21,585 nucleotides of DNA from a virus, in IMG/VR virus record IMGVR_UViG_3300033146_003231, positions 1-21,585 of that record. The stretch is one strand, 5' to 3'. Shown here one piece after another: positions 61-20,414 of this stretch (position 1 is its first letter; every line of letters starts with the position of its first letter). Below the pieces are notes generated by a model. That model was given only the letters and a program-made list of their open reading frames with translations. It made no database searches and was not told where the DNA came from. The translations under genes and the position numbers were made by a program.

Positions 61-420
61 TTAACCTATAGTATCGAATAATACACCAATATTATCACGG
101 TAATATCTAAGTCTAGTAAGAAATTCTTCACTTGGATATTGACGTATTAAATCATCAGTCTTTTTATCTCTAATCTGAACTAACAATTGGTTCTCATCAT
201 TTGCATAACTGAATCTTAGACTATCACCTATTATAGGCATACTGTTTAACCCAGCTAATACTTTATCAAGTTCAGGCTTATCGGTTTTTGCTTCTTCCTG
301 TACTTCTTTTTGTTGAGTCTCAATAACCTTCTCGGGTTTTAAAACTTGATTTGATAATTCTTTTGCAGAAATATTAGGGCTAAATACCTCACTAACTGCT
401 TTTCCTATTTGTTCTAACAT
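61..420 (-). CDS. flaG: FlaG family flagellar protein
   Basis: 119 aa. The C-terminal half (about residues 65-119) has the FlaG pattern: LRFSYANDENQLLVQIRD, then DDLIRQYPSEEFL and a closing GVLFDTIG. The N-terminal half is charged and low in complexity, as in bacterial FlaG. FlaG affects flagellar filament length in several bacteria, and in Campylobacterota it is often encoded near flagellin, fliD and fliS. The start ATG (420-418) overlaps the upstream gene's stop (ATGTTAG), so the two are translationally coupled. Together with the flagellin this makes a flagellar module in what otherwise reads as a phage genome. Whether it was captured from a host or belongs to a decoy or modification strategy cannot be seen here. 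Confidence 0.85.
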   Translation of the reverse strand: MLEQIGKAVSEVFSPNISAKELSNQVLKPEKVIETQQKEVQEEAKTDKPELDKVLAGLNSMPIIGDSLRFSYANDENQLLVQIRDKKTDDLIRQYPSEEFLTRLRYYRDNIGVLFDTIG

Positions 421-767
421 AATACTAGATACTCTTTAATACCGTTACTTTTTTCCGATACTTGTTTTAATTCTTCATAATCTTTAACTAATTTAATACT
501 AATATCTATTGTATTTTTAGTATCTTCTTCTGAATTTCCAGAACCAGCTTTATAAGCATCAATTTTATTCTGAGTAACTTCTGCAGCGACTTTAGTCGTT
601 TGCATATCAGTTAAAGAAGGTGTAAAATTCTGCATCTCTTCTTTAGTATCTTGCTCTGCGTTTTTTACTTCTGCTTCTACTTTATTTTGTAACTCATTTA
701 GTTTACCGTTGTACTCTTCTTGTATTGGTTGTGAAGGTATTCCTGGTTGAATTGGTTGTATAGTCAT
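414..767 (-). CDS. Coiled-coil protein between flagellin and FlaG
   Basis: 117 aa, family not recognised. A proline/glutamine-rich N-terminus (MTIQPIQPGIPSQPIQ) precedes charged, heptad-like helices (NGKLNELQNKVEAEVKNAEQ and the C-terminal third). No signal peptide or membrane segment. An AAAGGATAT ribosome site precedes the ATG. It lies between flagellin and flaG on the same strand and overlaps flaG, so a filament-related role such as export partner or structural accessory is possible. It does not resemble FliS or FliD, so the flagellar role rests only on position. Confidence 0.65.
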   Translation of the reverse strand: MTIQPIQPGIPSQPIQEEYNGKLNELQNKVEAEVKNAEQDTKEEMQNFTPSLTDMQTTKVAAEVTQNKIDAYKAGSGNSEEDTKNTIDISIKLVKDYEELKQVSEKSNGIKEYLVLC

Positions 768-833: not shown

Positions 834-2861
834 TTATCTTAAGAAACTAAGAATTAATTGTTGTGATTCTGCTGCTTTACCTGCTGCCCACGCACCTGCT
901 TGTAGTTGTAGTGATAATTTTTGAGAATTAGCACTTTCTGCTGCGAAGTCAACATCTCTAATTTGAGATTCAGCCGCTTGTACATTTGCTGATGTCGCTT
1001 CATTAACTCTAACTCTTGATTCTAAAGAAATTTGTGTACTACCTACATTACTTCTAATAGCATCAATGCTTTTAATCGCAGCATCAATACTTACGATTGC
1101 TGCATCAGCACCTGCTTGAGTGGTTAAATCTAAATCACCATCTGCGACACCCATTGTAGCAATATCGGCATTAGTAATAGTCATACCAATTGTTTGACCA
1201 GATTCTGAACCAACATGGAATTTTTTACCGGTAAATGTACCATCTAATAAATTAATTCCATTGTATTGTGTTTGTTTTGCAATATCATCTGCTTGTAACA
1301 TTAGTTGTTTAACATCTTCTTCTAATGCTGCACGAGCCTCTGGCGAATTTGTGTCCGAAGATGCTTGAACTGCTTTATCTCTTGCTAAAGTTAAAAGTTC
1401 AGTGTACTCGTTAAGACCCGCATCTGCGATTTGAGTTAAACCAATCGCATCTTGTGCGTTTTTATTACCTTGTAATAAACCTTGTGATTGAGTTCTAAGT
1501 TGATTAGCAATTGCTAGTCCTGCCGCCATTTAACTTCAAATTAAATCGTTAATTTAATTTCGTTCTCTTATGAACTGCTATATGTTTCCATATAGATGAG
1601 ACTATATCTTCCGGCTATTTCTAGCTTGAGTGGTACTTCGGAATAACTTTATTCCTACTCCCTATCGGGATAGTCGTTGAACCTTCTTCTTTAACTTAAT
1701 ATTAAGAAGCTCGGATGCTGATTGTCTAATCCTAAAGATTTTCAAACATTCATAGTCTAATTTCTTGACTATTGTAGTTCTTTGGGCTCTCAAGAGTTTC
1801 CAGCAATTCTCCACTTTTATAGATGACACACGGCATATAAATCTTCTAAAAGGATTGAACATTTATCTTGTTTTGAACAGTTTTCGGAATGATGGATAAT
1901 CTCTAGGTTATTAATGTTACCAATTACATTTGGCAACACACTTAATCTAAATCCTTCATTTATTGAAAATCTATGGTCAAGGTGATGAGCATTTTCGATT
2001 AAGTCTGCTCTTCCTCTCAACTCTATATTAGGTAGTGATGATAAATTACATTTATTAGTTATTTTCCAAACTTGTAATTTATAGTCTTGATAGTCACTTA
2101 AAATTTTAGGAGGTAATTTTGGATATTTACATAAAATTTCTTTCAATGTAATCGAGCCATTATCTATTTTTGTTAGATAACCTTTCCTATATATTTCTTG
2201 TAACATTTTATAAGTTTTATTTGAATAAGTTTCTAATCTTATTTTATGAGAATCGCTCCCAATATAACCAAAAGTATTATTTTCTGATTTAGTTTTATTC
2301 ATTTTATTTCTTATTTCACTATTTTTAGTTTGGTCTTTACCTATAAATCCTAATTTTCCTGTTCTTTCTATAATATCTCTAGGTCTACTTTTGTTTAGTG
2401 TTTTGGTTATATTTTGTTTTTTGGTTGCTTCACTTAAATTGTGATTTTTATCAACACAACTCTTACACATATAATCAAATCCCTTATATAAACCTAGCCT
2501 ATCATTAAATGTTCTCATTATAGTTTTTGATTTAGTATTACAAGAAGGACAAATATATACTATACTATCATTATGAGATATTCTTTTTTCGTCAACATAA
2601 ATCACTTTCTGTTTAATTGAACCTGAATGTCTATACCACATAGTATAATTATTTGTTTTAATTCCTGATATACTTAAAATCTTAACCATAATATATTTCC
2701 TTTTTTATATTATTTATATTTTTCTATTTATCATCTGCTGCACGATTAATTCTAAAACCACTTGATAATTTTTCTAATGAACTGTCTAGTGAACCTTGTG
2801 TTTGTCTGTTATACATATTTGCGAATAAACTCGCTGTATTTGTTTGAATTGAAAAACTCAT
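834..2861 (-). CDS. Flagellin, gene split by a group I intron (exons 2861-2730 and 1526-834)
   Basis: Exon 1 gives residues 1-44, beginning MSFSIQTNTASLFANMYNRQ and ending GFRINRAADD. Exon 2 restores the frame with AAGLAIANQLRTQ. The joined protein is about 274 aa. The D0/D1 N-terminal flagellin core and a D1/D0 C-terminus (ESQIRDVDFAAESANSQK to LILSFLR) are present with almost no variable central domain. Without splicing, exon 1 runs AADDK-stop. The C-terminal D0 helix (LSLQLQAGAWAAGKAAESQQ) departs from the usual pattern of alternating small and polar residues, so packing into a host filament may differ. Start ATG at 2861-2859 follows AAAAAGGAT. A 6-bp leader hairpin (2900-2885) and a TATAAATA promoter (2935-2928) lie upstream. 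The 14-aa-conserved junction region is the strongest identity evidence. Confidence 0.9.
1817..2689 (-). CDS. HNH homing endonuclease encoded in the flagellin intron
   Basis: 290 aa. An N-terminal zinc-binding part has CPSC (C47, C50) and CKSC (C75, C78). The C-terminal HNH nuclease core starts at about residue 234: AHHLDHRFSINEGF, then NNLEIIHHSENCSKQDKC. The middle is basic and probably binds DNA. The gene starts 40 nt into the intron after AAAAAAGG and a TATAAATA box, and ends inside the P1 guide sequence. The expected role is to cleave intron-less flagellin alleles at the AADD/AAGLA site and so drive intron homing. The organisation resembles phage T4 intron endonucleases, but the nuclease family here is HNH. 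Confidence 0.88.
   Translation of the reverse strand: MVKILSISGIKTNNYTMWYRHSGSIKQKVIYVDEKRISHNDSIVYICPSCNTKSKTIMRTFNDRLGLYKGFDYMCKSCVDKNHNLSEATKKQNITKTLNKSRPRDIIERTGKLGFIGKDQTKNSEIRNKMNKTKSENNTFGYIGSDSHKIRLETYSNKTYKMLQEIYRKGYLTKIDNGSITLKEILCKYPKLPPKILSDYQDYKLQVWKITNKCNLSSLPNIELRGRADLIENAHHLDHRFSINEGFRLSVLPNVIGNINNLEIIHHSENCSKQDKCSILLEDLYAVCHL
2711..2718 (-). promoter_or_regulatory. TATAAATA late-type promoter inside the intron
   Basis: The octamer TATAAATA is followed by ATATAAAAAAGG and the HNH start codon at 2689. It matches the T4 late promoter consensus read by gp55-type sigma factors, and would let the endonuclease be made from a short late transcript independently of flagellin. Confidence 0.6.
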
Positions 2862-2927: not shown

Positions 2928-2935
2928 TATTTATA
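2928..2935 (-). promoter_or_regulatory. TATAAATA promoter of the flagellin operon
   Basis: TATAAATAATG lies about 66 nt before the flagellin ATG. The leader carries a TTCTCA/TGAGAA hairpin (2900-2885) that exposes AGGA in its loop. A TATAATCATA on the same strand slightly upstream is an alternative -10 box. Confidence 0.6.
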
Positions 2936-2968: not shown

Positions 2969-3018
2969 CTTAAGAAAACTTTAAGAAAACTTTAAGAAAA
3001 CTTTAAGAAAACTTTAAT
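2969..3018. repeat. 11-bp tandem repeat of TTTAAG tracts
   Basis: TTTAAG/T tracts (the first is CTTAAG) start at 2969, 2980, 2991, 3002 and 3013, exactly 11 bp apart, with a unit of TTTAAGAAAAC. The array lies between the leftward flagellin operon and the rightward small genes, immediately upstream of a promoter. The spacing is close to one DNA helical turn, so it may act as a phased upstream element. Confidence 0.85.
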
Positions 3019-4020: not shown

Positions 4021-4908
4021 ATGAAGAAGTTAAAAAATGAAGATATATTAATAAAATTTGGCAGTATACATAAAGATAAATATGATTATTCTTTGGTAAA
4101 TTATATTAATTATCATAAAAAAGTTAAAATAATCTGCAAAAAGCATGGAGTTTTTGAACAAACACCAGCCAATCATATATCTGGCCAGAATTGTATTTAT
4201 TGCTCTAATAAGGTAAAACACCAAATTGATATAATTGAAGAATTTATTAAAATAAATGGTAATAAATATGATTATAGTTTAGTAAAATATACAGGTGATA
4301 AAGAGAAAGTTAAAATAATCTGCAAAAAGCATGGAATATTTGAAACTAGGCCACAGATACATAAATATGGGTCTGATTGTCCGCAATGTAGTAATATATT
4401 AGATAAAGAAACAGTAATAAAACAATTTAATGAAATTCATAATAATCTATATGATTATTCTCTTATTGAGTATATAGGTGGTAAAGAAAAAGTTAAAATA
4501 ATCTGTGAAGAGCATGGAATATTTAACCAAACACCAAATTCGCATAAAAATGGTAGAGGTTGTAATAAATGTATGTTAGAGAAAAGATATAAAGATAGAA
4601 AAACATTTTTGTATTATTTATTAATAAATAATACCCAATATAAAGTAGGTATATGCTTAAAAGGTAATAATGCTTCCATACAATCAGCGATAAAAAGCAG
4701 ATATCATAAAGAGATAAAGAGTGGCGTTAATATACAAATATTAGATTATGAATTATTCATGGATGGGAACTTAGCATATACCAAGGAACAGAGAATAAGA
4801 ATAGATTATAATTTTGGGATAGATAAGAATAAATCTTTACTTATAGGTGGCGGACATACTGAAATTAGTATGAATAACTTATTAGAAGATACATTGAAGG
4901 ATAAATAA
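4021..4908 (+). CDS. Homing endonuclease-like protein with three DUF723-type repeats
   Basis: 295 aa. Three zinc-finger-like repeats (about residues 7-62, 70-123 and 130-184) share KYDYSLV, KVKIICKKHGIF and a closing CxxC; this type is common in phage homing endonucleases and probably binds DNA. The C-terminal 110 residues (FLYYLLINNTQYKVGI to GGGHTEIS) resemble divergent GIY-YIG nucleases of the T5orf172 sort, with the core tyrosines, K-V-G-I and a late acidic residue. It separates the 5' stub of a BRCT gene from its body, and its stop shares bases with the next start (TAATG). Nuclease assignment is by pattern, not proof. Confidence 0.75.
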   Translation: MKKLKNEDILIKFGSIHKDKYDYSLVNYINYHKKVKIICKKHGVFEQTPANHISGQNCIYCSNKVKHQIDIIEEFIKINGNKYDYSLVKYTGDKEKVKIICKKHGIFETRPQIHKYGSDCPQCSNILDKETVIKQFNEIHNNLYDYSLIEYIGGKEKVKIICEEHGIFNQTPNSHKNGRGCNKCMLEKRYKDRKTFLYYLLINNTQYKVGICLKGNNASIQSAIKSRYHKEIKSGVNIQILDYELFMDGNLAYTKEQRIRIDYNFGIDKNKSLLIGGGHTEISMNNLLEDTLKDK

Positions 4909-6924: not shown

Positions 6925-7755
6925 ATGACTTATTTGTATATAAAAACTCACAATAAAACTGGTCTACAATATTTTGGAAAATTTACTGGAACAGAAAGAA
7001 GATTTAAAAAATATAAAGGTTCTGGATTATACTGGAAAAGGCATATAAAAAAACATGGATATGATGTAACTACCAATATATATTCTATATTCGATATTAA
7101 TAATTGTAATATCGAAGATGTAGCATTGGATTTTTCTATAGAAAATAATATAGTAGACTCAAAAGAATGGGCTAACTTGGTTTTAGAAAATGGATTAGAT
7201 GGTTCTCTAAATAATCTAGGTAAAAAATTATGTAATGATGGTATTTTACAAAAATATTTTAGGGAAGATGATATACCACATAATTTTAATATAGGCAGCA
7301 TTTACGAATATAAATGGTATAATGATGATATAAACGAATATTTTATTACTATAAAGAATAGTAAAAATCTTAAACTTGGGAGACTAAAGAAAAAAGGGGA
7401 GTATTATAATAATGGAAAAGAATTATTATTGATTATGAATAAAATAAATATTCCTAAAGGTTTTGTAAAAGGTGGAATTATAAGTAAAGTCTATAATAAT
7501 GGTATAATAGAAAGACGATTTAAAACAGATGATATAATACCAGAAAATTTTAATCGTGGTATGCTAAAATTAGGTAAATGGTATAATAATGGGGAGATGG
7601 AAAAAAGGTTTAGAATAAATGAACCGATAACAAAGGGTTTTGAATTAGGCCAGATTATTGTAACCTGCCCACATTGTTTAACTAAATGTAATAAAGGGAA
7701 TGCTAAAAGATGGCATTTTAATAACTGTAAAAAGGCAATTGATGTATATAACTGA
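6925..7755 (+). CDS. GIY-YIG homing endonuclease with YNNG-type repeats
   Basis: 276 aa. The N-terminal GIY-YIG domain (residues 1-95) shows YLYIKTHN, YFGKF, YKGSGLYWKRHIKKHG and NNIVDSKEWANLVLENGLDG, the style of T4 Seg-like enzymes. The middle has spaced repeats of the form KWYNNGEMEKRF followed by a GF.xG turn. The C-terminus has a CPHC...HFNNC zinc-finger-like end. The first 95 residues closely match the antisense gene at 20296, while the C-terminal DNA-binding parts differ, as expected for enzymes with different targets. It is preceded by a structured leader, and its last 14 nt overlap the start of the next gene. Confidence 0.85.
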   Translation: MTYLYIKTHNKTGLQYFGKFTGTERRFKKYKGSGLYWKRHIKKHGYDVTTNIYSIFDINNCNIEDVALDFSIENNIVDSKEWANLVLENGLDGSLNNLGKKLCNDGILQKYFREDDIPHNFNIGSIYEYKWYNDDINEYFITIKNSKNLKLGRLKKKGEYYNNGKELLLIMNKINIPKGFVKGGIISKVYNNGIIERRFKTDDIIPENFNRGMLKLGKWYNNGEMEKRFRINEPITKGFELGQIIVTCPHCLTKCNKGNAKRWHFNNCKKAIDVYN

Positions 7756-14274: not shown

Positions 14275-14964
14275 TTGATAAAGTTAGATAAATATATAAC
14301 TTTTTGTATTGATAATAATACAAATAATAGTGTAAAAAGTGATTTACATCATATATTACCTAAATCTCAATGGTTATTCCCACAGTTTGCAGACCTAAAA
14401 AATAATTGTTGGAATGGAACTTACTTAACACCAATTAATCATATTAAAGCACATAAATTATTAGCTGAGGCTATTAATCATTTATCAATTGATAAAGCTT
14501 TCACATGTTTATATGATTTTTCTTATGATGTATCTAATATGAATGAAGATGAAATAAATGATATAATTATAAGAGGTAGAAAACATTCTGAAGAAACTAA
14601 GCAAAAAATTAGTAAAAGTAATACTGGAAAATCCAGATTAAAAGGCGAATCTTCACCAAATTTTGGAAATAAACATAGTGATGAAACAAAAAAGAAAATG
14701 TCTAATAATCATGCAGATGTTTCAGGAGATAAAAATCCAATGTATGGGTGTAATAGAAGTGGTGAAGCCGGGCCAAACTTTGGAAATAAGCATAGCGATG
14801 AAGCAAAAAAGAAAATGTCTAATAATCGTAAAAATAAAGGCACAGGAAAAAGAGCAGGATATATTAAAAAAGCAAGCGTATGTATAATTTGCGGCTTAAT
14901 ATCTAGTAGTAATACTATAAGTAAATATCATAATGCTAAATGTAAAGGAAATAATAATGAATAA
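14275..14964 (+). CDS. HNH homing endonuclease with NUMOD3 repeats
   Basis: 229 aa from a TTG start. HNH core: LHHILPKSQWLFPQFADLKN then GTYLTPINHIKAHKLLA. From about residue 100 there are several NUMOD3-type DNA-binding repeats of the form GNKHSDETKKKMSNN, then a zinc-finger-like CIICG...YHNAKC end. Free-standing phage endonucleases have this layout. With the stop at 14266 the start is uncertain; reinitiation after the leader ORF is likely. The last 8 nt overlap the polymerase start, so endonuclease and polymerase are translationally linked. Confidence 0.85.
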   Translation: MIKLDKYITFCIDNNTNNSVKSDLHHILPKSQWLFPQFADLKNNCWNGTYLTPINHIKAHKLLAEAINHLSIDKAFTCLYDFSYDVSNMNEDEINDIIIRGRKHSEETKQKISKSNTGKSRLKGESSPNFGNKHSDETKKKMSNNHADVSGDKNPMYGCNRSGEAGPNFGNKHSDEAKKKMSNNRKNKGTGKRAGYIKKASVCIICGLISSSNTISKYHNAKCKGNNNE

Positions 14965-16870
14965 TTTTTCGGATTTTATGTACGAGAATGTATTTGAAAA
15001 ACCAGACTATTCAGGTAAAAAAGTAAAAAAACAAGTTTGGGCTAGATTATATAACCCCGCTACTAAACAAAGTGACTTTAAAAATGTCACTAGCTACAGC
15101 ATACCACACATTTATCAATATAGTAAAAATGGTCAGTTTGTCTCACATATAGATACTAGCCTAAAATTAACTCCTAAGAAATTCAACGAGATGGATGCTT
15201 TCGATAAATTCGTAAAAGAAATTAAAGTTGAAACTGGAGAAATGGTTCAGATTGAAGTTGATGGTGAAGAATTTGAATTTGAAGAAACTGTATTTGAAGA
15301 TGATGTATATGGATATACAAATAAACCTCACACATTTATTCACAGATATTTTACAGATGCTTTAAAATCAGACCACTTACATCGTACTTGGTTTTTCGAT
15401 ATTGAAACTCGCTCTGGTGTTGTAATACCAAATTCATTCCCGCATTCATATTTAGCCCTAGAAGAAATTTCTATGATACAGATATATGATAACTTTCTTA
15501 AAAGTTATATTGTAATTGGACTAAAAGATTTCACAGGTAAATTTGATGACCCTAAGAATACTAGATTTATTAAAGTTGATACTGAAGCAAAACTGTTAAC
15601 TTTATTTTTGCAACTATTAGAGAAGATGAAACCTAGTATTATTTCTGGTTGGAATAGTATGATGTTTGATATTCCTTATATTACAAATAGAGTCGCACGT
15701 GTATTAGATGGATTTAATGGACCTGTTGATGAGCTTAATAAAAAGAAATCTTATATTGAAATGGATAATGTTAAAAGATTAAGCCCTGTTCGTTCAGTGT
15801 ATGGAAGTTCAGCAAAAACTAAAGATGGAATGGAAGGGGTCACATCGCACTGGCAAGGAATTGCTTTAGTGGATTATCGTGAGCTTACAATTAAATATGG
15901 ATACTTAGGTTTACCAAGTTACTCTTTAGCTAACGTTGCAAGACACTTTGATTTATCACAAAAAATTGACCACTCTCAATATTCTAAATTTGATGATACA
16001 TATACGGGTGAGAATTATTTCATGCCTCTTGAACCAATGGTTGGAGATGAAGTATATGATATTCAGCTAGCATATAAAAATGGTACAGCGACTAAAACAG
16101 AAATGCAACAAGTTGTATATAATAGATTTGTTGATTACTCATTAAGAGATGTCGAGATACTTGTGCAACTTGATGAGATGACAAAATATTTAGCATCACA
16201 ACAAGGTATTGCATATACTTGTTCAGCATCATTTGATGATTGTTGGGGTACAGCTAAACACTGGAGTTCTTATATGTTTACTGAAGCACTTCAAAAACAA
16301 GAAGTCCTTCCGCTAACACAGAGATTCCCAGATAAAGATGTTGTATTCTTGGCTGGTTGGGTTAGAAATATGCCAGGAAAATATGAGTATATTTCTTCAT
16401 TTGACTTTACATCACTGTACCCATCGTTAATTATGGCTTTCAATATTGGAGCTGACGTATATGTGAATGATGAAGAAATGCACCAGGATTTAAAAGACCT
16501 CCGGGCTAAATTCTTTACTTATCACACTATGGAAAATGTTAATAGAGAATTAGTCTTACACGATGGAACTGAAGCAGCTCTTGGTAAAATGGTTCTTAAG
16601 CACAACGGAGAAATCTCAGATTTAGAAGAAGAAACTATTTTCTATAAATCTTTAATCGATAATAAAGATGAGATTTCTGCAGTGTTACAGAAGCACGATG
16701 TTTGTGCTACACCAAATGGATTTTTCTACAGAAAAAATAAAGAATCTCAAAGTTCTATATTAATGAGAAGAAACTTCTTAAATCGTGTAAAAGCGAAACG
16801 TGCTGGTCAAGCTGATGGTGCAGAACTTGAGAAACTTAAAAAAGAAATGCAACATAGAGGCTTATTATAA
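14957..16870 (+). CDS. 43: Family B DNA polymerase, N-terminal half (T4 gp43-like)
   Basis: 637 aa from ATG 14957, which follows AAAGGAAATAATA; an upstream ATG at 14933 adds eight residues without support. Exonuclease motifs are intact: Exo I FFDIETR (D148, E150), Exo II GWNSMMFDIPY (N233, D238), Exo III YSLRDVEI (D398). Polymerase motif A SFDFTSLYPSLI has the metal ligand D483. The frame then ends at LKKEMQHRGLL, in the fingers region ahead of motif B. Motifs B and C are in the gene at 17879. So this chain has the 3'-5' exonuclease and half of the palm, and must join the second chain to polymerise. An antisense endonuclease gene starts right at the break. Confidence 0.92.
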   Translation: MNNFSDFMYENVFEKPDYSGKKVKKQVWARLYNPATKQSDFKNVTSYSIPHIYQYSKNGQFVSHIDTSLKLTPKKFNEMDAFDKFVKEIKVETGEMVQIEVDGEEFEFEETVFEDDVYGYTNKPHTFIHRYFTDALKSDHLHRTWFFDIETRSGVVIPNSFPHSYLALEEISMIQIYDNFLKSYIVIGLKDFTGKFDDPKNTRFIKVDTEAKLLTLFLQLLEKMKPSIISGWNSMMFDIPYITNRVARVLDGFNGPVDELNKKKSYIEMDNVKRLSPVRSVYGSSAKTKDGMEGVTSHWQGIALVDYRELTIKYGYLGLPSYSLANVARHFDLSQKIDHSQYSKFDDTYTGENYFMPLEPMVGDEVYDIQLAYKNGTATKTEMQQVVYNRFVDYSLRDVEILVQLDEMTKYLASQQGIAYTCSASFDDCWGTAKHWSSYMFTEALQKQEVLPLTQRFPDKDVVFLAGWVRNMPGKYEYISSFDFTSLYPSLIMAFNIGADVYVNDEEMHQDLKDLRAKFFTYHTMENVNRELVLHDGTEAALGKMVLKHNGEISDLEEETIFYKSLIDNKDEISAVLQKHDVCATPNGFFYRKNKESQSSILMRRNFLNRVKAKRAGQADGAELEKLKKEMQHRGLL

Positions 16871-17878: not shown

Positions 17879-19016
17879 ATGAATTTAGAAAATTATTCTG
17901 ATGAAGAATTACTAAAAAAATACAGTGAATTACAGCAATCTAAAGACTTGAATGAAAATATTTCTCAAGTTCTTAAGATTTTGCTTAATTCTTATTATCG
18001 GCAGTCTCAGCATGGGTCATATTACGTACAGTAATGGTAACATAACAGCTTCTAGTATCACTACAGCAGGCCGTATGAGCAATAAGATAGCTTCTATGTA
18101 TGCTAGTAATAAAGTTGCAGGTATGCTTGGTGAGCCCACAGGGACAGATTTAAGATATGTTCCACAAGTAGATACTGATAGTTACTATCTAAATCTAGGT
18201 GATGTTGTTAAAACTAAGATGAGTAATTTCGATAAAGATAAAAAAGTGAAAGCTGTTCTTAAGATTTCTGATACTATTATACTTGAGAGTAATAAAAAAG
18301 CGATGGTAGATATTGCAGAAACATTAAACTTAAGAGATACTAAAGCCTTAAACTTAGAGAATGAAATTATTGCTGATGGATTTGTATCATTAGCAGCTAA
18401 AAGATATTTCGGTCGTAAAGTTGTAGAAGATGGAACTATATTAGCTAAACCTAAAATGAAGTCAACGGGTATATCTCTAGTTTCTAAGAAGACTCCTAAG
18501 TTTTTAAGAGATGCACTTGCACCTGTACTAGAAATTATACTTGATGGTACGAATTCAGATTTGAATAAGTATATCAAAGGGGTCCGAGCAGAATTTGGTG
18601 AGCTAAGTCCTACTGAATTTGCACGTTCAGCAAATGTTAATAATCTTTCTTATAGTCCTGTTGGATTTAAGTACAAGAGACAAAAGGAAGATGGTAAATT
18701 CTTAACAGCCCCAATGGGCTCGCACGCTTCTTTAGAGTTCAATAGATATATTAAAGAAAATAATATGACTGGAAAATACAACCCTATTGAGGTTGGTGAA
18801 GCAGTAAGTTATGTTTATATTAATGAACCTAATGAGAAAAAATTGCATGGCTCTTTAGCTTGGAATGACCCGAACTTTACAGATGATGTAGACTTAAAAG
18901 ATTTTGTATCTTATGCTGAACATTTTCATAAAGATTTTGAGAAGAAAGTTGAGATTGTTGTTAAGCCTATTGGATGGAATATTTATAATAAGACTGAAGA
19001 AATGGAAGTCTGGTAA
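17879..19016 (+). CDS. 43: Family B DNA polymerase, C-terminal half, with a +1 frameshift in motif B
   Basis: The first frame (17879-18034) reads MNLENYSDEELLKKYSELQQ to KILLNSYY and then stops as RQSQHGSYYVQ. Skipping one base (C at 17999) continues as GSLSMGHITYSNG, completing motif B KILLNSYYG. The next frame carries motif C QVDTDSYYLNL (D at 18171 and 18177) and the thumb KPKMKSTGISLVSKKTPKFL, similar to T4 gp43. The shifted product would be about 378 aa, so both halves together total about 1015 aa against 898 for T4 gp43. The skipped base is not in a homopolymer; TAT TAT CGG places a rare arginine codon in the A site. Programmed +1 shift, true mutation or sequence error are all open. Confidence 0.85.
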
Positions 19017-19579: not shown

Positions 19580-20296
19580 TTAATTCATATGAACACATAC
19601 TTTATTAAGTATTCCTAATTTTCTAGCGGCAGCATAAGCTCCACTAGAACCCCTCCCAAATTTTGTTCTTGTTGTATATTTTAACGCTTCAATTTTAATA
19701 TTATTTTCACACCATGATATTATTATAGCGGGCATATGCGAGCATACCTCATTCATTATTTTCCTTTTGGAAGCAGCTTGATATGCCATCAAATCATGTT
19801 TACGAAATTCATCTCTAGTTAAATATTTTGATGCTGACATTTTAATATTCGCATTTGTCCAAGTAAATTTTTTAATCATATGACTACATATATTTTTTAA
19901 AATACCTAATTTTAAAGCTGTTTGATAAGCCCCGCCACACTTATTTTTAAATTCGCTTCTATGTTTATATTTTAACGCTTCAATTTTAATATTATTTTCA
20001 TCCCACTTTATTATTCCACCATCTAAACCATTTTCTTCAGTTAAATTTGCCCAATCATTAGAGTCTACTATATTATTTCTTTTAGAAAAATCTAGAGCTA
20101 CTTCTTCTAATAATGGGTCATCTTCATAAAAAATACCGTATAATTCAGTAGTTACATTATAGTTATGCTTCTTAATATGCCTTTTCCAGTATAAACCGGA
20201 ACCCTTGTAGTTATGTATATTTTCATTTATTGTTTTACCGAAATATTTTAATTGTGTTATATTGTGAGTTTTAATATATAGATATACTAGTCGCAT
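19580..20296 (-). CDS. GIY-YIG homing endonuclease with A-Y-x-A-A/C-x-H-M repeats
   Basis: 238 aa. The GIY-YIG domain (residues 1-97: VYLYIKTHN, YFGKTIN, YKGSGLYWKRHIKKHNYNVT, NNIVDSNDWANLTEENGLDG) closely matches the gene at 6925. The C-terminal half consists of three repeats of about 47 residues, each with IKIEALKYK/T-x-R-x-F, an A-Y-x-x-A-x-K-x-x-I stretch and a C-x-H-M end. Such repeats are DNA-binding modules in other phage endonucleases as I recall. An AAGGATA ribosome site and a pseudoknotted leader precede it. Its stop abuts the stop of the convergent frameshifted gene. Confidence 0.85.
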   Translation of the reverse strand: MRLVYLYIKTHNITQLKYFGKTINENIHNYKGSGLYWKRHIKKHNYNVTTELYGIFYEDDPLLEEVALDFSKRNNIVDSNDWANLTEENGLDGGIIKWDENNIKIEALKYKHRSEFKNKCGGAYQTALKLGILKNICSHMIKKFTWTNANIKMSASKYLTRDEFRKHDLMAYQAASKRKIMNEVCSHMPAIIISWCENNIKIEALKYTTRTKFGRGSSGAYAAARKLGILNKVCVHMN

Positions 20297-20305
20297 ATAT
20301 TATCC

Positions 20306-20414
20306 TTATAAATTTAATTATAAGAGGAGTATGCTAGGACTCAAATTATATATGTAGATGGAGTCCTAGCATAGAGCATCTACATATATAATCTCTCTTA
20401 TACTATATTTATAA
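20306..20414 (-). ncRNA. Pseudoknotted leader of a GIY-YIG endonuclease (copy 2)
   Basis: Same plan as 6803-6918. A perfect 16-bp stem joins 20345-20360 with 20377-20392. Its loop element pairs perfectly over 13 bp with downstream sequence (20361-20373 with 20330-20342), making an H-type pseudoknot. Outer pairings are CTCTTATA (20395-20402) with TATAAGAG (20319-20326) and 20407-20414 with 20306-20313. The outer arms are nearly identical to copy 1, but the stem and pseudoknot sequences are entirely different and still pair, which is covariation. TATAAATA (20413-20406) lies in the 5' outer arm. Confidence 0.82.

Follow-up and report, generated by a model that had tools for sequence, protein, structure and literature searches.

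A putatively mobile group I intron in the flagellin gene of a T4-like phage that probably infects Campylobacterota

The flagellin gene of the viral record IMGVR_UViG_3300033146_003231 is split by a group I intron. The DNA analysed here (the window) is the complete IMG/VR record of 21,585 bases. The gene lies on the minus strand, with its ATG at 2861 and its stop codon ending at 834, and is interrupted by an insert of 1,203 nucleotides (nt; Table 1). We consider it very likely that the insert is a mobile group I intron in the flagellin gene of a T4-like phage, and that this phage probably infects Campylobacterota. The intron and its putative endonuclease are of ordinary phage kinds; what is unusual is that a lytic-looking phage carries a flagellin gene and that this phage gene contains an intron. 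A first-pass annotation of the sequence had proposed a group I intron in a phage-borne flagellin. The proposal is borne out by a match to the Rfam group I intron model (RF00028), by empty sites in homologous genes and by the phage context. To it we add the intron ORF (open reading frame) as a probable homing endonuclease, the FlaG gene, the connection with Campylobacterota and the relatives with empty sites.

Joining the two exons yields a flagellin of 274 amino acids (aa), with Flagellin_N and Flagellin_C extending over the spliced product. Exon 1 matches PF00669 (Flagellin_N) at profile positions 1-40, and exon 2 carries both PF00669 and PF00700 (Flagellin_C). Intact homologues occur in two large phage contigs, G001 (146,525 bases; locus L003) and G002 (154,998 bases; L004). 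Each encodes a flagellin of 274 aa that is uninterrupted at the same codon boundary. A third contig carries the same flagellin as G002 (L005). The flagellin in the window is 72% and 65% identical to the intact phage homologues, and the N-terminus encoded by exon 1 can be aligned with both. The empty sites read RINRAADD/AAGMAIANQ and RINRAADD/SAGLAIANQ. Hence, the intron boundaries are fixed independently of any RNA model. In the window the junction is RINRAADD/AAGLAIANQ, exactly where the first-pass annotation had placed it, and the intronless homologues read straight across. Searches of G001 and G002 for group I introns found none, and our scans of viral contigs, which reach only close relatives, gave no further intron-bearing flagellin.

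A search with the Rfam group I model, which the first-pass annotation had suggested as a check, matches the full model length at 1862-1578 on the minus strand. The match scores 60.2 bits (E = 1.9e-14 in a short-range run), above the gathering score of 50 bits. A run over the whole window at gathering thresholds reported nothing, the intron included, because of its fast filters; the short-range run detected the intron. The helices form a pseudoknotted P3-P7 core with P4, P6 and P8. Between P7 and P3 lie the extra helices P7.1 and P7.2, and thus we assign the intron to subgroup IA, probably IA2. By blastn, the core resembles stretches in more than 1000 phage records.

The splice sites also have the expected form. 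P1 places a U-G pair at the 5' splice site, the last intron base is a G, and a P10 helix pairs the intron with the 3' exon. P1 (7 base pairs, bp), P10 and the GACTA/TAGTC pairing of P7 all lie where the first-pass annotation had drawn them. The 7-bp P1 alone was rejected as evidence, as it arises in 36% of shuffled introns. The combination of P1 with an adjacent 6-bp P10 appears in 2 of 4000 shuffled introns. Covariation points in the same direction: 18 pairs change on both sides, compared to 8.8 after shuffling and no more than 5 after shifting the partners by one to three columns, in an alignment of the intron with the introns of two related contigs whose rows are few, related and in part poorly aligned in P7.1-P8.

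The loop of P1 contains an intact open reading frame (ORF) that is homologous to ORFs at other intron-bearing loci. Over its C-terminal third it shares 48% identity with ORFs of two short T4-like contigs, G004 and G005 (L063 and L064), each of which has three to four RF00028 group I introns and related ORFs. One of the introns in G005 follows a tail-sheath exon. The intron ORF also shares 43% identity over 97 residues with CP21_075 of Campylobacter phage CP21, an ORF within a split tail-sheath gene; a search for a group I core around this relative found none. The alignment with relatives contains a conserved LDH...N...N..K pattern, which suggests an HNH-type nuclease. We take the ORF product to be a probable homing endonuclease. 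The final codons of the ORF extend over the P10 strand and the guide sequence.

Candidate T4-type late promoters (TATAAATA) lie directly upstream of the intron ORF and some 67 nt before the start codon of the flagellin gene. In G001, 22 of the 37 copies of this octamer stand upstream of open frames (L047-L054), the top value among all A5T3 octamers, as a T4-type late promoter would lead one to expect. As a late promoter across the window as a whole, the octamer was rejected because it is not enriched. Directly upstream of the flagellin gene, an 11-bp unit (ACTTTAAGAAA) is also present in about four tandem copies (2969-3016).

Table 1. Coordinates of the flagellin gene, its intron and neighbouring features in the window
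Feature	Position	Strand	Basis and remarks
FlaG gene	61..420	minus	PF03646, E=3.9e-15; NF006281, E=4.4e-16, under the NF006281 cut-off
117-aa ORF	414..767	minus	between flagellin and FlaG genes, overlaps flaG; no family match
Flagellin exon 2	834..1526	minus	230 codons plus stop, AAGLAIANQ...ILSFLR; starts at G1526
Group I intron	1527..2729	minus	1203 nt; 5' splice site after T2730, last base G1527; RF00028 and empty-site homologues
P9.2 hairpin	1560-1552/1546-1538	minus	direct pairing
P9.1 hairpin	1575-1572/1565-1562	minus	direct pairing
Rfam-matched core	1578..1862	minus	RF00028; direct pairing; covariation
P9	1595-1589/1584-1578	minus	direct pairing
P8	1625-1622/1617-1614	minus	direct pairing
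P7.2	1655-1651/1644-1640	minus	direct pairing
P7.1	1670-1667/1662-1659	minus	direct pairing
P7	1675-1671/1604-1600	minus	direct pairing, GACTA/TAGTC
P6a	1709-1704/1691-1686	minus	direct pairing
P4	1805-1801/1720-1716	minus	direct pairing
P3	1815-1811/1633-1629	minus	direct pairing
Intron ORF	1817..2689	minus	290 aa; in P1 loop; homology to ORFs of intron-bearing T4-like contigs
Internal guide sequence	1821..1827	minus	GTCATCT, 3' strand of P1; pairs with exon end AGATGAT (2736-2730)
P10 strand	1830..1835	minus	TGCCGT; pairs with 3' exon start GCGGCA (1526-1521)
Candidate late promoter	2711..2718	minus	TATAAATA; directly upstream of intron ORF
In-frame TAG	2724..2726	minus	translation; two codons into intron
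Flagellin exon 1	2730..2861	minus	44 codons, MSFSIQTNTA...RINRAADD; last base T2730
Candidate late promoter	2928..2935	minus	TATAAATA; upstream of flagellin start

The closest flagellin in a set of 397 Campylobacterota genomes shares only 49% identity with that of the window. A tree built from 51 flagellins groups the three phage copies in a single clade with 100/100 support on a long branch. The clade sits in the part of the tree that holds the Campylobacterota flagellins, a join that may suffer from long branches in a tree whose root is arbitrary. For the three pairs of phage copies, the ratio of nonsynonymous to synonymous substitution rates (dN/dS) comes to about 0.26, 0.19 and 0.16; their synonymous sites are close to saturation. 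From these comparisons we read the phage flagellin as an old single capture that is under purifying selection in this phage group.

Downstream of the flagellin gene lies a gene for FlaG, a family of flagellar filament length regulators. No FlaG above the cut-off was found in G001 or G002, nor did viral contigs or phage records yield any FlaG relative. Searches of the window, G001 and G002 for FliS and FliD found neither.

The first-pass annotation had called the genome phage-like, and this agrees with the rest of the window, which carries a T4-type DNA polymerase (in two pieces), a deoxycytidine monophosphate deaminase and a deoxynucleoside monophosphate kinase. It also agrees with the relatives of the flagellin, which lie in phage contigs of 146 and 155 kb. 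Genes for a tail sheath, a baseplate wedge and a terminase are present in G001, and G002 encodes a tail sheath, a topoisomerase, a terminase-like protein and a gp23-like capsid protein. The window and G001 also have in common a gene for a small membrane protein next to the flagellin gene. No tyrosine integrase was found in the window, G001 or G002, which suggests, and does not prove, a lytic lifestyle. The host is probably a member of the Campylobacterota, since the polymerase is nearest to those of Campylobacter phages (about 29% identity) and the flagellin clusters with those of Campylobacterota.

The window is crowded with mobile genes. Free-standing endonuclease-type ORFs lie at 4021-4908, 6925-7755, 14275-14964 and 19580-20296; their classes are DUF4379, NUMOD3 and GIY-YIG-like (the last by eye). 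The polymerase pieces lie at 14933-16870 and 17952-19016, the second with a frame change near its start, and between them an ORF with a T5orf172 domain runs on the opposite strand (17788-16865). A split at nearly the same position also occurs in the polymerase of G002, where small genes but no T5orf172-domain ORF separate the pieces. The polymerase of the window contains no RF00028 match. Near the right end, a long AT-rich inverted repeat (20338-20400) surfaced as a chance match to a microRNA model.

We propose the following scheme. The 1,203-nt RNA would fold, and a guanosine held in P7 would cut after the U of the final codon of exon 1, which forms the U-G pair in P1. P10 would then align the exons, and exon 1 would be joined to exon 2 to give an unbroken flagellin. 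The TAG just inside the intron would keep ribosomes arriving from exon 1 off the core, and the intron ORF product would perhaps be expressed from the internal late promoter. In co-infecting phages, the endonuclease would cleave flagellin alleles that lack the intron, and repair would copy the intron into them. The phage flagellin presumably alters the host filament during infection, because it is conserved and, in the window, encoded near flaG.

Some observations weigh against this account of a mobile intron in a T4-like phage. Hidden Markov model and structure searches found no HNH family or structure match for the intron ORF, and the predicted fold of its product is poor, too poor for structure searching. 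Across the whole window, the octamers TATAAATA do not exceed chance. At 60 bits, the Rfam score is modest beside the 76-86 bits of most introns of the relatives. Structural phage genes were not recognised in the window, a fragment of 21.6 kb. Finally, only one intron-bearing flagellin was found, so that mobility at this site is inferred.

The modest score would also fit a splicing-deficient relic. Such an intron would yield no full flagellin and at most a truncated exon 2 product, started from the ATG formed by the last three intron bases (1529-1527), where an open frame of 231 aa does begin. Yet all core helices, the U-G pair, P10 and the terminal G are intact, and the intron ORF is open. Both exons are intact as well, with a dN/dS well below 1 against the intronless homologues, and the 44 residues of exon 1, which a truncated product would lack, belong to the N-terminal helical region of flagellin. 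We therefore regard a relic as improbable. It is even harder to believe that the flagellin is a host gene and the record a chimera or a stretch of bacterial chromosome. Flagellin and FlaG are normally bacterial, and the window shows no recognised structural phage genes. However, the remainder of the window is of phage type, two large phage contigs carry the nearest flagellins, one of these contigs has the same neighbouring small membrane-protein gene, and the phage copies are monophyletic and distant from even the best Campylobacterota flagellin.

A functional, mobile intron may at the same time be regulatory, a reading that is compatible with the one we prefer. Splicing efficiency would then set flagellin output in response to temperature, translation or phage stage. 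Flagellin introns of thermophilic Firmicutes splice temperature-dependently (PMC4853749). Here, translation of the intron ORF could compete with splicing, as its final codons share sequence with the guide and the P10 strand. However, the intronless relatives manage without an intron, and ordinary mobile introns also have ORFs that reach into the core (PMC3984707). Hence, we think a regulatory role rather unlikely.

If the preferred reading holds, the intronless relatives provide a natural comparison with and without the intron. It would also mean that the conserved phage genes open to settlement by mobile introns extend beyond those for replication and packaging. The retention of a flagellin by a lytic-looking lineage suggests that such phages change the host filament. 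A further step is speculative, and we give it a small chance only: lytic T4-like phages of Campylobacterota may rebuild the filament of the infected cell with their flagellin (here together with FlaG), and the intron endonuclease may be a weapon against rivals, or a host, with an uninterrupted flagellin. In phage PhiPA3, an intron endonuclease harms a co-infecting phage (PMC11620839).

Changes to the host filament by a phage have so far been described, in the open-access literature, for a temperate Enterobacter phage. A 2026 paper calls its prophage flagellin FliCP, which is controlled by TldR, the first known example (PMC13418256). Both systems have a phage-carried flagellin homologue that is divergent from host flagellins. 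The FliCP phage is temperate and uses an RNA-guided repressor, and no intron is described for it. In contrast, the phage studied here is T4-like, with FlaG nearby and no tyrosine integrase in the records examined.

With the mobile introns of T4-like and other phages our intron shares the core, P7.1/P7.2, an encoded ORF and a conserved coding insertion site. The usual sites of phage introns are polymerase, reductase or terminase genes (PMC3984707); phage flagellin is not among the listed targets, and the ORF here lies in the P1 loop. The nearest relatives of the intron ORF are at the loci of G004 and G005, which carry RF00028 introns, and at the tail-sheath locus of CP21. These differ in their target gene, and the CP21 stretch is without a detected group I core.

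The closest parallel for the interrupted gene comes from thermophilic Bacillaceae, as the first-pass annotation had noted in agreement with the literature. Group I (IA2) introns split flagellin genes there too (Hayakawa and Ishizuka 2009, 2012, as cited in PMC3984707 and PMC4853749). As described in these citing papers, the Bacillaceae introns reside in Firmicutes chromosomes, whereas the present intron is carried by a phage, in a flagellin of the Campylobacterota type.
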